Assembly: GCF_900103285.1 (NCBI RefSeq)
Contig: NZ_FNGS01000008.1
Span: forward strand, 240,094-304,093
DNA: 64,000 bases
Source: Siphonobacter aquaeclarae
Lineage (GTDB): Bacteria; Bacteroidota; Bacteroidia; Cytophagales; Spirosomataceae
Reading direction: 5' to 3'
Shown here one piece after another: positions 5,619 to 9,708 of this stretch. The notes below the pieces were generated by a model that did not search any database, was not told the origin of the DNA, and saw nothing but the letters and a program-made list of their open reading frames with translations. The position numbers and the translations under genes are program-made. The first letter of the stretch is position 1. The number at the start of each line of letters is the position of its first letter.

Positions 5619-7130
5619 ATGAGGTATATTGAGATCATGGATACGACACTCCGCGATGGCGAACAGACCAGCGGAGTGTCTTTTTCGGCTTCGGAGAAGC
5701 TGGCACTCGCCCAGATCCTTCTCACCGAAGTCAAGGTAGACCGCATTGAAATCGCTTCGGCACGGGTGTCGGAAGGGGAGTTCAAGGCAGTACAAAAAAT
5801 TACGAGCTGGGCTCAGGAAAACGGCTACATCGATAAGGTGGAAGTGTTGACGTTTGTAGACGGCGGCGTGTCCATCAACTGGATGCTGGAATCCGGCGCG
5901 AAGGTGATGAACCTGCTGACGAAAGGCTCGCTCAACCACCTGACCTATCAGCTCAAGAAAACGCCGGAAGAGCATTTTGCCGATATCCGGAAAGTCATCG
6001 AAGACGCGGCGTCGAAAGGTATTTCGGCAAACGTGTACCTGGAAGACTGGAGCAACGGCATGCGTAATTCACCGGAGTATGTGTTTCAATACCTCGATTT
6101 TCTGACGACGCTGCCCATCCGGCGCATTTTGCTTCCGGATACACTCGGCGTACTGACGCCGGCGGAGTCGTACACGTTTGTCAAAGCGATTGTGGACCGC
6201 TACCCCGGCCGGCATTTCGATTTTCACGCGCATAATGACTACGACCTGAGCATCGCCAACATCATGGAAGCGGTGCGGGCGGGTGCAAGCGGCCTCCACC
6301 TGACTGTTAACGGAATGGGCGAACGCGCGGGCAATGCCCCGCTGGCGAGCGCCATTGCCGTCCTGAAAGACTTTATGCCGGAAGTGGAAACCGGCGTAGC
6401 AGAAGGGTCTCTGTATTCGGTCAGTAAAATTGTTGAGACTTTCTCCGGGTTGCGTATCCCGGCCAACAAGCCGGTTGTAGGCGATAATGTGTTTACGCAG
6501 ACGGCCGGTATTCACGCCGACGGAGACAAGAAAAACAACCTGTATTTCAACGAGTTGATGCCTGAGCGGTTCGGACGGAAACGCTCCTATGCGCTCGGAA
6601 AGACTTCCGGAAAAGCCAATATCGAGAACAACCTCCGCGAGCTGGGTATCATGCTGGCGGATGAGGATCTCAAAAAGGTTACCCAGCGGATTATTGAGCT
6701 TGGCGACCGCAAGGAGGTCGTTACCCGGGAAGATCTCCCGTACATCATTTCCGACGTACTGGATACGAATGCAATCGAGCTCAAGATCGAGGTGCTGAAC
6801 TATGTGCTGACGCATTCGAAGGATCTTCGCCCTTCGGCAACGCTGAAGGTGAGAATCGAAGACGAAACCTTTGAAGCCAACGCCCAGGGAGACGGCCAGT
6901 ACGATGCCTTTATGAATGCCCTGAAGAAAATCTACGGGCGTAAAGGGCTGGATCTTCCGGTGCTGACAGACTATGCCGTGCGGATTCCGACCGGCGGAAA
7001 AACTGACGCACTTTGCGAGACGGTCATTACCTGGCACTGGAATAACAAGGAGTTCAAAACGCACGGACTGGATTCTGACCAGACCGTTTCGGCTATCATC
7101 GCGACGCAGAAAATGCTGAACCTGATGTAG
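5619..7130 (+). CDS. Alpha-isopropylmalate/citramalate synthase family protein with regulatory domain
   Basis: A 503-residue DRE-TIM metallolyase that condenses acetyl-CoA with a 2-oxo acid. The HMGL-like barrel covers about 1-270, with [15 protein letters not shown] (DRE motif) and the metal-binding FHAHNDYDLSIAN. The communication region follows, then a C-terminal LeuA dimerisation/allosteric domain (about 380-503). The window holds a second, short LeuA (8569-9708), so this one may be a (R)-citramalate synthase (CimA) feeding isoleucine, or a leucine-regulated isopropylmalate synthase. Sequence alone does not settle substrate choice. ilvA is also present, so a citramalate route would be redundant with threonine deamination. 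Confidence 0.9.
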   Translation: MRYIEIMDTTLRDGEQTSGVSFSASEKLALAQILLTEVKVDRIEIASARVSEGEFKAVQKITSWAQENGYIDKVEVLTFVDGGVSINWMLESGAKVMNLLTKGSLNHLTYQLKKTPEEHFADIRKVIEDAASKGISANVYLEDWSNGMRNSPEYVFQYLDFLTTLPIRRILLPDTLGVLTPAESYTFVKAIVDRYPGRHFDFHAHNDYDLSIANIMEAVRAGASGLHLTVNGMGERAGNAPLASAIAVLKDFMPEVETGVAEGSLYSVSKIVETFSGLRIPANKPVVGDNVFTQTAGIHADGDKKNNLYFNELMPERFGRKRSYALGKTSGKANIENNLRELGIMLADEDLKKVTQRIIELGDRKEVVTREDLPYIISDVLDTNAIELKIEVLNYVLTHSKDLRPSATLKVRIEDETFEANAQGDGQYDAFMNALKKIYGRKGLDLPVLTDYAVRIPTGGKTDALCETVITWHWNNKEFKTHGLDSDQTVSAIIATQKMLNLM

Positions 7131-7221: not shown

Positions 7222-8292
7222 ATGAAAAAACACATCCTTATCGTTCCCGGTGACGGAATCGGGCAAGAAGTTACCGCCGTTGGCAAGCAGGTACTGGATC
7301 GCATCGCCGAAAAGTTCAACCACGAGTTTACCTACGACGAAGCCCTCATCGGTCACGTAGCCATCGAAGCAACGGGCGATCCGCTGCCGGAAGAAACGCT
7401 CGTGAAAATGCGTGCTTCGGATGCCATTCTGTTCGGAGCGGTAGGTCACCCGAAATACGACAACGACCCTTCTGCCAAAGTACGCCCGGAGCAGGGATTG
7501 CTGAAAATGCGCAAGGAACTCGGATTGTATGCCAACCTCCGTCCGATCAAGCTGTTTGACGAACTGCTCGAAGCGTCCAGCATCAAAGCAGATATCCTGC
7601 GCGGCGCAGATATCCTGTTTTTCCGGGAACTGACGGGCGACGTGTACTTCGGCAAGCGCGAGCGCCTGGAAGACGGCAATACAGCCTATGACACGATGAT
7701 CTACCACAAGTACGAAGTAGAGCGTATCGCCCGCAAAGCCTTTGAAGCGGCCCGTACCCGGAGCAAAAAGCTCATGTCGGTAGACAAAGCCAACGTACTC
7801 GAATCCAGCCGTCTCTGGCGCGAAGTCATCCAGAAACTGGCCCCGGAATACCCGGACGTGGAAGTAGAACACCAGTTTATCGACGCGGCGGCAATGCTGC
7901 TCATCAAGGATCCGCGCCGCTTTGACGTGGTTGTAACCGGAAACCTCTTCGGTGACATCCTGACGGACGAAGCCAGCCAGATCGCCGGTTCGATGGGTAT
8001 GCTCGCGTCCGCTTCTGTCGGCGACAGTACAGGCGTATACGAACCCATCCACGGTTCAGCACACGATATTACGGGCAAGGGCGTAGCCAACCCCCTCGCA
8101 TCTGTTTTGTCTGCTGCGCTTATGCTGGATATTTCCTTTGGATTGAAGGCAGAAAGCGAAGCGATTATCGCTGCGGTAGACGGCGTGCTGAAGGATGGAT
8201 TCCGGACCCGCGACATCGCTGATACCACGACGGACGCATCCAAAATTCTCGGTACTGACGCCATGGGAGCCGAGCTGCTCAAACGTCTCTGA
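7222..8292 (+). CDS. leuB: 3-isopropylmalate dehydrogenase
   Basis: 356 residues, the normal length. It oxidatively decarboxylates 3-isopropylmalate to 2-oxoisocaproate with NAD+. Seen are the N-terminal VPGDGIGQEV, the substrate loop GLLKMRKELGLYANLRPIK, the metal-site segment NLFGDILTDEASQIAGS, and the nucleotide site EPIHGSAHDITGKGVANPLA. It lies 91 nt after the citramalate/isopropylmalate synthase and just before the leuA leader region. Confidence 0.98.
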   Translation: MKKHILIVPGDGIGQEVTAVGKQVLDRIAEKFNHEFTYDEALIGHVAIEATGDPLPEETLVKMRASDAILFGAVGHPKYDNDPSAKVRPEQGLLKMRKELGLYANLRPIKLFDELLEASSIKADILRGADILFFRELTGDVYFGKRERLEDGNTAYDTMIYHKYEVERIARKAFEAARTRSKKLMSVDKANVLESSRLWREVIQKLAPEYPDVEVEHQFIDAAAMLLIKDPRRFDVVVTGNLFGDILTDEASQIAGSMGMLASASVGDSTGVYEPIHGSAHDITGKGVANPLASVLSAALMLDISFGLKAESEAIIAAVDGVLKDGFRTRDIADTTTDASKILGTDAMGAELLKRL

Positions 8293-8314
8293 GCAGCGAA
8301 TCGAACGGAAAAAA

Positions 8315-8345
8315 TTTGTCCGAATCAAATTTCCGGCTATTTTTG
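8315..8345 (+). promoter_or_regulatory. Promoter of the leuA leader transcript
   Basis: TTTG at 8315-8318 and TATTTTTG at 8338-8345 with exactly 19 nt between, which fits the Bacteroidota primary sigma consensus (-33 TTTG, -7 TAnnTTTG). Transcription would start near 8350, about 20 nt before the leader-peptide ATG. Confidence 0.75.
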
Positions 8346-8371
8346 TCCTTATAAGCGTAACCGCCTGTGTC

Positions 8372-8425
8372 ATGTTTGCTCAGAAACTCAACCTTGCTCT
8401 TATTCTTCTCAGTCGTTGTGTCTGA
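8372..8425 (+). CDS. leuL: Leucine leader peptide
   Basis: A 17-codon reading frame, MFAQKLNLALILLSRCV, with five leucines plus one isoleucine and one valine. Four Leu and one Ile codon are packed into codons 8-13. It starts about 20 nt after the predicted transcription start and is followed 26 nt later by an intrinsic terminator, all upstream of leuA. This is the layout of classic amino acid attenuators. The gene is named by position and composition; the peptide itself is expected to have no function beyond ribosome pausing. Confidence 0.7.
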   Translation: MFAQKLNLALILLSRCV

Positions 8426-8479
8426 GGATGGGACCTGGTGTTGATATACCGAACCCTTTCTCAGACTTGAGAAGGGGTT
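8406..8479 (+). promoter_or_regulatory. Leucine attenuator with alternative 1:2, 2:3 and 3:4 pairings
   Basis: Segment 1 (8406-8412, within the Leu codons) and segment 3 (8458-8466) share TTCTCAG. Both can pair with segment 2 (8420-8428, which holds the leader stop codon). Segment 3 also belongs to the terminator stem (segment 4, 8468-8479). A ribosome stalled on the Leu codons would cover segment 1, let 2:3 form and prevent the terminator. A ribosome reaching the stop codon would cover segment 2 and let 3:4 terminate. The pairings were read directly from the sequence; the mechanism is inferred by analogy with enterobacterial leu and trp leaders. Confidence 0.7.
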
Positions 8480-8484
8480 TTTTA
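8452..8484 (+). terminator. Attenuator terminator before leuA
   Basis: A 12-bp stem (8452-8463 with 8468-8479, one G-T pair, GACT loop) followed by T residues to 8483. It lies between the leader peptide and leuA, so it would stop transcripts before the structural gene. Confidence 0.85.
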
Positions 8485-8568
8485 TTGAGCCTTTCTTTCG
8501 GCGATGTTACCGCGAGTACCGGTTCCTAACCAATGTAATTTACCAGTTCATCGAACCACTGTTTACCC

Positions 8569-9708
8569 ATGAGTCAGCGAATTCAAGTTTTCGACACTAC
8601 CCTGAGAGATGGCGAGCAAGTGCCTGGTTGCCAGCTCACAACGGAAGAAAAGGTGGTGGTCGCCAAGGAACTGGAAGCCTTGGGGGTTGATGTCATCGAG
8701 GCAGGTTTTCCGATTTCCAGTCCGGGTGATTTCCGTTCGGTCGTGGAAATCTGCAAGGCCGTCACCGAACCGACAATCTGCGGCCTTACGCGCGCCGTGG
8801 AAAAAGATATCGAAGTCGCTGCGGATGCGCTTAAATGGGCGAAACGCCCGCGTATTCACACGGGTATCGGGTCTTCGGATGTACACATTCAACACAAGTT
8901 CAACTCGACCCGCGAGCAGATTCTGGAACGGGCAGTGGCCGCGGTGAAGTATGCAAAGAAATTTGTCGAAGACGTCGAGTTTTTTGCAGAAGATTCGGGC
9001 CGGGCTGACCTCCAGTTCCTGGCAAAGCTGACGGAAGCTGTCATCGGCGCCGGGGCGACGGTTGTCAACCTCCCCGACACGACGGGCTACCTTCTGCCGG
9101 ATCAGATGTATGACCGGATCAGCTATCTCTTCGAAAACGTATCGAATATTCACAGGGCGACGATCTCCATGCACTGCCATAACGACCTTGGGCTGGCAAC
9201 AGCGAACACGCTGGCCGGTATACGGGCGGGGGCGCGGCAGGTGGAAGTCACCATCAACGGGATCGGAGAACGGGCCGGAAACACGTCGCTGGAAGAAGTA
9301 GCGATGGCGCTCAAGGTCCATAAGGATCTGGGCTTCGAAACCGGTATTGATTCCCGCCGTCTGTATCCGATGTCCAAACTGGTCTCGGAAATGATGCGGA
9401 TGTCTGTGCAGCCGAATAAGGCCATTGTGGGCCGGAATGCCTTCGCACACTCGTCCGGGATTCACCAGGACGGGCACCTGAAAAACGCATCCAATTACGA
9501 AATCATCACCCCGGAAGAAGTGGGCGTGCCGCAGTCGGAAATCATCCTGACGGCCCGCAGCGGTCGCGCTGCCCTGCGCCACCGCCTGCAATTGCTCGGC
9601 TTCCAGTTTGAAAAACTGGATCTCGACCGGTTGTATGACCGCTTCCTCCTCATGGCCGACGAACGGAAAATGATCCACGACCGGGACCTGATGGAGCTGG
9701 TAGGTTAA
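8569..9708 (+). CDS. leuA: 2-isopropylmalate synthase, short form lacking the allosteric domain
   Basis: A 379-residue catalytic DRE-TIM barrel that condenses acetyl-CoA with 2-oxoisovalerate, the first committed step to leucine. Visible are [16 protein letters not shown], the metal ligands in [28 protein letters not shown], and [12 protein letters not shown]. The protein ends at about the position where the C-terminal leucine-binding domain begins in 500-residue LeuA proteins, so end-product inhibition of the usual kind should be absent. Control by the upstream attenuator may compensate (inference). The gene stands 276 nt after leuB, behind its own promoter. Confidence 0.95.

Follow-up and report, generated by a model that had tools for sequence, protein, structure and literature searches.

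The window, by which we mean the whole 64,000-nucleotide stretch of Siphonobacter aquaeclarae DNA analysed here, carries on its plus strand leuB, encoding 3-isopropylmalate dehydrogenase (7222–8292; NCBIfam TIGR00169, score above the cut-off), followed by leuA, encoding a 379-residue 2-isopropylmalate synthase (8569–9708; NCBIfam NF002086, score above the cut-off). LeuA contains the Pfam HMGL-like and HCS_D2 domains and lacks the C-terminal allosteric LeuA_dimer domain (PF08502); feedback inhibition of the enzyme may be absent. The citramalate-synthase-like protein encoded at 5619–7130 has the LeuA_dimer domain that LeuA is without. Farther upstream, a gene for a 23S rRNA intervening-sequence-type protein (PF05635; 4625–4945) lies between leuC and leuD.

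The leuB–leuA interval holds an upstream TTTG element of the Bacteroidota type (8315–8318), which lies in an ungapped alignment in all six sequences of the genus and is followed, after a 19-nt spacer, by the TAnnTTTG element TATTTTTG (8338–8345). The promoter, TTTG-N19-TATTTTTG, was assigned by consensus only; in the part of PMC9723704 consulted, the consensus for sigma-A reads TAnnTTTG. Transcription would be expected to start a few nucleotides 3' of TATTTTTG. A scan of 8200–8700 with the E. coli sigma-70 consensus returned no promoter.

Downstream lies a 17-codon leader peptide frame, MFAQKLNLALILLSRCV (8372–8425), with its ATG at 8372, its TGA at 8423–8425 and five Leu codons at 8387, 8393, 8399, 8405 and 8408, three of them CTT and two CTC. 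In 12 coding sequences of the window the commonest Leu codon is CTG (48.6% of 553), with CTC at 26.4% and CTT at 11.2%. Four RNA segments can be marked. Segment 1, the putative protector arm (8406–8412, TTCTCAG), overlaps Leu codons 4 and 5 and pairs with 8422–8428; segment 2, the 5' arm of the predicted antiterminator (8420–8432), includes the leader stop codon UGA; segment 3 (8454–8466) is common to antiterminator and terminator; and segment 4 spans 8468–8480. In the 2:3 pairing, 8420–8428 pairs with 8458–8466 and can be extended by three pairs (8430–8432 with 8454–8456). The 3:4 hairpin, an intrinsic terminator of −18.0 kcal/mol (8451–8480), joins 8451–8463 to 8468–8480 and runs into a T-run at 8478–8483. 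The three pairings 1:2, 2:3 and 3:4 are mutually exclusive, and a second copy of TTCTCAG lies within segment 3, at 8458–8464. An earlier sequence-only reading had proposed the consensus promoter just 3' of leuB, the leader with five Leu codons, the three exclusive pairings with a T-run terminator and the repeated TTCTCAG; each was found, base for base, where it had been placed, and the 2:3 extension was added to the pairings.

We propose that this region is very probably a transcription attenuator of the ribosome-mediated, leader-peptide type, with charged tRNA-Leu as its signal and leuA as its target. The sensed amino acid matches the product pathway of the regulated gene (Leu and leuA, by NCBIfam). 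RNA synthesis would begin just 3' of leuB, with a ribosome coming along on the 17-codon leader. If charged tRNA-Leu runs short, the ribosome would wait at the Leu codons and leave segment 2 unpaired; free segment 2 would capture segment 3 as it emerges, forming the antiterminator, and the polymerase would continue into leuA. When leucine is ample, the ribosome would reach the UGA within segment 2 and mask that segment, and the 3:4 terminator would form.

The proposed switch was modelled by blocking the RNA up to 12 nt beyond the A-site codon and ending it at 8467, where segment 3 is out and segment 4 is not. The probability of 2:3 was 1.00 for all A-site codons through the last Leu (8408) and 0.00 from codon 8411 onward; a ribosome on the Leu codons therefore permits the antiterminator in the model, and one past them blocks it. 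The first codon to lose 2:3 was the second after the last Leu with footprints of +9 to +11 and the one directly after it with +12 to +14. With footprints of +15 and +16 the loss already came at the last Leu codon. At equilibrium on a longer RNA, ending at 8487, the terminator had a probability of 0.80–1.00 with the ribosome at Leu codons 2–5 and of 0.34 with the ribosome at Leu codon 1. Because the terminator is favoured at equilibrium with the ribosome on Leu codons 2–5, the decision must be kinetic, and we infer that segment 2 captures segment 3 before segment 4 is available. Modelled without a ribosome, the RNA formed 2:3 at 8467 and then 1:2 and 3:4 at 8480.

Tests within the window gave uneven results for the individual elements. 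The RNA from 8330 to 8500 folded better than 197 of 200 shuffles (z = −2.67), and the 2:3 duplex outdid 200 of 200. Taken alone, five Leu codons in the leader gave p = 0.113 and the 1:2 pairing p = 0.315. On both strands of the 64 kb we counted 33 terminator-like sites and, 5' of them, 10 leader-like frames starting with ATG, among which the leuA leader was the only one with at least four Leu and at least 20% Leu. As evidence for an attenuator, the Leu content of the window by itself is suggestive only.

We then compared the DNA upstream of leuA across the family. A LeuA search of 150 genomes gave some match in all of them, 145 strong (E < 1e-170) and five weak or partial, and the window and 109 relatives, 29 of whose loci were returned by search and 80 chosen to cover genera, made up 110 regions from 35 genera; one (L021) offered just 65 nt upstream of leuA. 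A hairpin of −10 kcal/mol or lower with a T-run, starting 50–175 nt 5' of leuA, was present in 53 of the 110 regions and absent by this rule from the other 57. Two of the 53 were dropped: L086, where the rule had chosen a hairpin overlapping the leader, and L015, whose hairpin has no leader-like frame 5' of it, an omission that favours the attenuator reading by one row. The analysed set thus comprised 51 regions from 18 genera, all five congeners included.

Promoter, leader and hairpins align across the five congeners and the window. The expectation that relatives would keep the Leu codons was borne out: the leaders of all five congeners are Leu-rich and read MFA..LNLSLILLG or the variant LNLSLLILG, the latter in two congeners, where Leu-Ile-Leu-Leu has become Leu-Leu-Ile-Leu by one Ile/Leu codon swap that leaves the Leu count at 3/4. 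Summed over the 51 regions, Leu occurs 230 times in the best leader-like frames, 3.65-fold the 63.1 of dinucleotide shuffles, with an excess at p < 0.05 in 24 regions individually. The runner-up residue was Gln (57 against 22.0; p < 0.05 in 8/51), and Asn (78 against 33.7) and Ser (107 against 50.4) each reached that level in 5/51; most residues somewhat exceed the shuffles because shuffled regions often have no qualifying frame. Leu-poor leaders also occur, with two to five Leu in g2 and two to six, mostly two to four, in g5 (Spirosoma). The TAnnTTTG motif was present 75–175 nt 5' of the terminator in 46 of the 51 regions, compared with 6.1% of mononucleotide shuffles.

In all six g27 regions (L063, L064, L074, L075, L081 and L109) the Leu-rich frame begins with TTG, and the rule finds no ATG frame. 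The same start opens the Leu-rich frame of L052 (g25), where a neighbouring ATG frame lacks the Leu enrichment. TTG starts could possibly be a way to lower leader translation.

Compensatory changes, which the sequence-only reading had named as a check, were sought in a 51-row MAFFT alignment with 500 shuffles and seven slides. The terminator clearly covaries. Its 3:4 pairing was formed in 89.1% of cells (shuffled, 84.7 ± 0.5; 0/500), with 39 double-changed cells (7.1 ± 2.3; 0/500), nine pairs with double changes (4.2; 0/500) and 22 further pair types (18.3; 11/500), and it ranked above all slides. For 2:3, three of the five measures exceeded every shuffle and were the highest of the seven slides: paired cells (75.9% against 70.2 ± 0.9; 0/500), double-changed cells (41 against 19.9 ± 3.5; 0/500) and the covariation score (0.229 against 0.152; 0/500). 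The other two, pairs with double changes (7 against 6.0; 151/500) and further pair types (24 against 22.4; 141/500), exceeded neither the shuffles nor all slides. Relatedness is noted to mislead these two measures least, and covariation therefore makes a good though unfinished case for 2:3. The 2:3 pairing itself is non-random: its duplex reached p < 0.05 in 39 of the 51 regions and p ≤ 0.01 in 28. The evidence for segment 2 comes from the 2:3 duplex tests, the covariation tests and the masking model, and that for segment 3 from the covariation tests of both 2:3 and 3:4.

The protector pairing fared differently. Over the 51 regions, 1:2 was the best of the seven slides and was paired in 63.1% of cells, not above shuffles (61.7%; 75/500), and its duplex reached p < 0.05 in just five regions. 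Within the genus it is paired in 42 of 42 cells (six sequences) with zero double changes, and it therefore gains no covariation support there. Much of the family might, in a reading that we consider tenable though somewhat against the odds, use a two-state device that has no protector hairpin and in which the ribosome alone decides whether segment 2 is available. An untranslated leader would then read through, the reverse of the outcome in E. coli superattenuation.

These comparisons bear on the simplest alternative to an attenuator, in which the hairpin is an ordinary leuB terminator preceded by a short frame arising by chance, and leuA is expressed from its own downstream promoter or by read-through. 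The hairpin is a good intrinsic terminator, the Leu count of the window lies within chance, and the 57 family regions in which the terminator rule failed also fit this account. On the other hand, a Bacteroidota-type promoter lies 5' of the leader, no exact TAnnTTTG occurs between the terminator and leuA, and the 2:3 duplex, like the Leu excess, is found repeatedly across 18 genera. The family-wide Leu excess in particular makes this alternative improbable.

A second, similar element argues further for ribosome-mediated attenuation by charged tRNA-Leu. The leu genes are preceded, upstream of the window, by a cluster ilvD-ilvB-ilvN-ilvC-ilvA (named by eye, the ilvA end checked by Pfam). In front of ilvD, outside the window, contig C11 carries the leader MIRFASNILVIILLVLIRQSV (233845–233910), in which 12 of 21 residues are Ile, Leu or Val (five, four and three, respectively). 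The leader is followed by the complementary arm GTGTGAGATAGG and then by a terminator, the whole element spanning C11:233845–233964 (L138:7846–7965). The ilvD operon, some 14 kb upstream, is most likely under the control of the same kind of device, with Ile, Val and Leu codons as its input.

A search of 61 genomes found IlvD in 60, and the 30 loci that it returned were compared upstream of the gene. A hairpin of −10 kcal/mol or lower was present in 21 of them; L232 was dropped as weak, and 20 regions were kept. The 2:3 duplex reached p < 0.05 in 19 of these 20, and 18 had a leader with at least nine Ile, Leu or Val, as in MFANIIVVVVVILCTQTV (L211) and MIYTSLVVLIIIILLV (L213), with nominal binomial p values up to 0.01, uncorrected for the choice of the best frame. 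The remaining two of the 20 (L210 and L233) showed no leader rich in these residues. The ribosome-mediated Leu control that the sequence-only reading had put forward is, on the whole, supported by the Leu excess, the 3:4 covariation, most of the 2:3 tests and the ilvD sister element; its 1:2 arm found no support beyond the genus.

The ilvD leaders also weigh on the idea that the terminator is incidental and that the short frame either makes a small Leu-rich protein with a function of its own or couples translation. The peptides do resemble short hydrophobic helices, and some residues other than Leu are conserved within genera (many g5 leaders share R-L-Q). Visual comparison between genera shows little conservation apart from the Leu (or Ile, Leu and Val) content; the stop codon in the window falls inside the antiterminator arm, and the leaders before ilvD are rich in Ile, Leu and Val instead. 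We regard such a protein or coupling function as highly improbable. A T-box or a small-molecule riboswitch for leucine or leucyl-tRNA would also account for a conserved 5' leader that holds both a terminator and an antiterminator and precedes a gene of amino-acid synthesis. Such a riboswitch or T-box is scarcely credible given the absence of any Rfam family at threshold, the roughly 100 nt from expected start to terminator, half of them leader frame, and the zero T-boxes tabulated for seven Bacteroidetes/Chlorobi genomes in the part of PMC2494555 consulted.

Leader and T-box families are included in Rfam. None of its 4227 models scored above the curated threshold at 8290–8575, and the weak matches were unrelated. 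The Bacteroid-trp RNA (RF01692), listed as a cis-regulatory RNA of Bacteroidetes in the portion of PMC2864571 consulted, would by its name sit before trp genes; its covariance model had no match in the six genomes of the genus or in the window. In the same genome, we found no cognate leader with a terminator in the stretches directly 5' of hisG and of two aspartokinase genes. A trpE-like gene, scoring below the family cut-off, has a strong terminator 5' of it and no Trp-rich frame ending near that terminator.

Similar leaders occur farther out in the class. Sixty leuA regions were taken from other families within the order and class; 11 had a hairpin of −10 kcal/mol or lower, and seven of the nine of these inspected by eye carried a Leu-rich or Ile/Leu-rich leader 5' of it: L158 and L160 (f15), L178 (f16), L161 (f20), L192 and L194 (f53) and L195 (f77). 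Among 80 named genome contigs, many of which overlap organisms of the earlier samples, 33 had a terminator by the −10 rule. Leaders outside the family include MNNFYTNIILLGIIILLHNKTK in a Porphyromonadaceae MAG (L290), MSTSFNHIILLGLIILLQNKTK in a Bacteroidia MAG (L305) and MLNSILINGFIIILLRNCGWK in a Bacteroidales record (L313).

We considered whether the attenuator goes with loss of the allosteric domain from LeuA and rejected this, because leuA homologues with open frames of about 500 codons have leaders as well (L161 in f20, L178 in f16, L192 and L194 in f53, and L195 in f77), and because leuA is of the short kind in the family of the window, yet the terminator rule fails in 57 of its 110 regions.

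The predicted device resembles the leuL element of the enterobacterial leu operon, which likewise has a short leader in which cognate codons cluster, an antiterminator and a terminator that exclude each other, and a stop codon placed so that the finishing ribosome masks the antiterminator arm. Enterobacterial control of the leu genes by Leu and of ilvGMEDA, through ilvL, by Ile, Leu and Val forms the same pair as leuA and ilvD here. In contrast to enterobacterial leu, the promoter is of the Bacteroidota type; the attenuator stands before leuA alone, after leuC, leuD, the citramalate-synthase-like gene and leuB; the protector hairpin is unsupported outside the genus; and the five Leu codons are all CTT or CTC, two of them doubling as segment 1.

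In the part of PMC5794164 consulted, a Leu/Ile-rich attenuator is described before ilvD in Staphylococcus aureus, with promoter activity rising on Leu depletion and with leader mutations. That system shares a leader peptide with Leu codons and a terminator with the elements described here, and differs, as far as the same text goes, in its phylum, its putative ribosome-binding site, its control of the whole ilv-leu operon and its RNA folds (PMC5794164). Within the phylum, transcriptome mapping in Flavobacterium psychrophilum is reported to give "strong clues" of leader-peptide attenuation upstream of amino-acid biosynthesis operons, with no gene or codon named in the text compared (PMC9723704). 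Short frames reminiscent of leader peptides are mentioned for B. thetaiotaomicron in the portion of PMC7366714 consulted.

The earlier statement that such control is little described for Bacteroidota fits the present findings for leucine and is too broad for attenuation by leader peptides at large, which the consulted parts of the sources had already inferred (PMC9723704; RF01692). The literature searched yielded no description of a leucine attenuator in Bacteroidota, where an earlier comparative prediction is possible, for instance in the 2004 comparative work of Vitreschak and colleagues, which reportedly mentions Bacteroidetes/Chlorobi, or in a 2010 study by Lopatovskaya and colleagues. The comparison supports well the view that the element is a new leuA attenuator of an already known mechanism type.

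The comparative evidence points to an E. coli-style pair of attenuators, responding to Leu before leuA and to Ile, Leu and Val before ilvD, that is conserved in a family of Bacteroidota. Translation starts in this phylum use signals other than Shine-Dalgarno sequences, and a natural sensor makes the coupling of transcription and translation testable there. If the pair operates as proposed, ribosomes in Bacteroidota would load well on these leaders and follow RNA polymerase closely. Leucine-tunable control parts could be drawn from it for organisms with few genetic tools.

A further element appeared in sister genera. The palindrome AGCGAAATTTCGC was considered as part of the window attenuator and rejected: its 12-base core, common in sister genera, occurs in the window with two mismatches at best (one site, 24145), and its 13-mer is absent from genomes G000 and G020. 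The palindrome GCGAANNTTCGC, not found in the genus of the window, occurs no more than 330 nt from leuA in 40 of the 110 family regions; 32 of these belong to the 51 attenuator regions and eight to the 59 others. In sister genera it is located between the promoter and the leuA leader (for example, L130:1501–1513), and it precedes ilvD in 15 of 30 regions (for example, L113, L117, L120, L125 and L134). GCGAANNTTCGC is perhaps the operator of a branched-chain regulator acting together with the attenuators. In L115 (g2), GCGAANNTTCGC lies between a malate synthase gene and a divergent gene for a regulator with HTH and IrrE domains, which offers a lead to a candidate GCGAANNTTCGC-binding protein.
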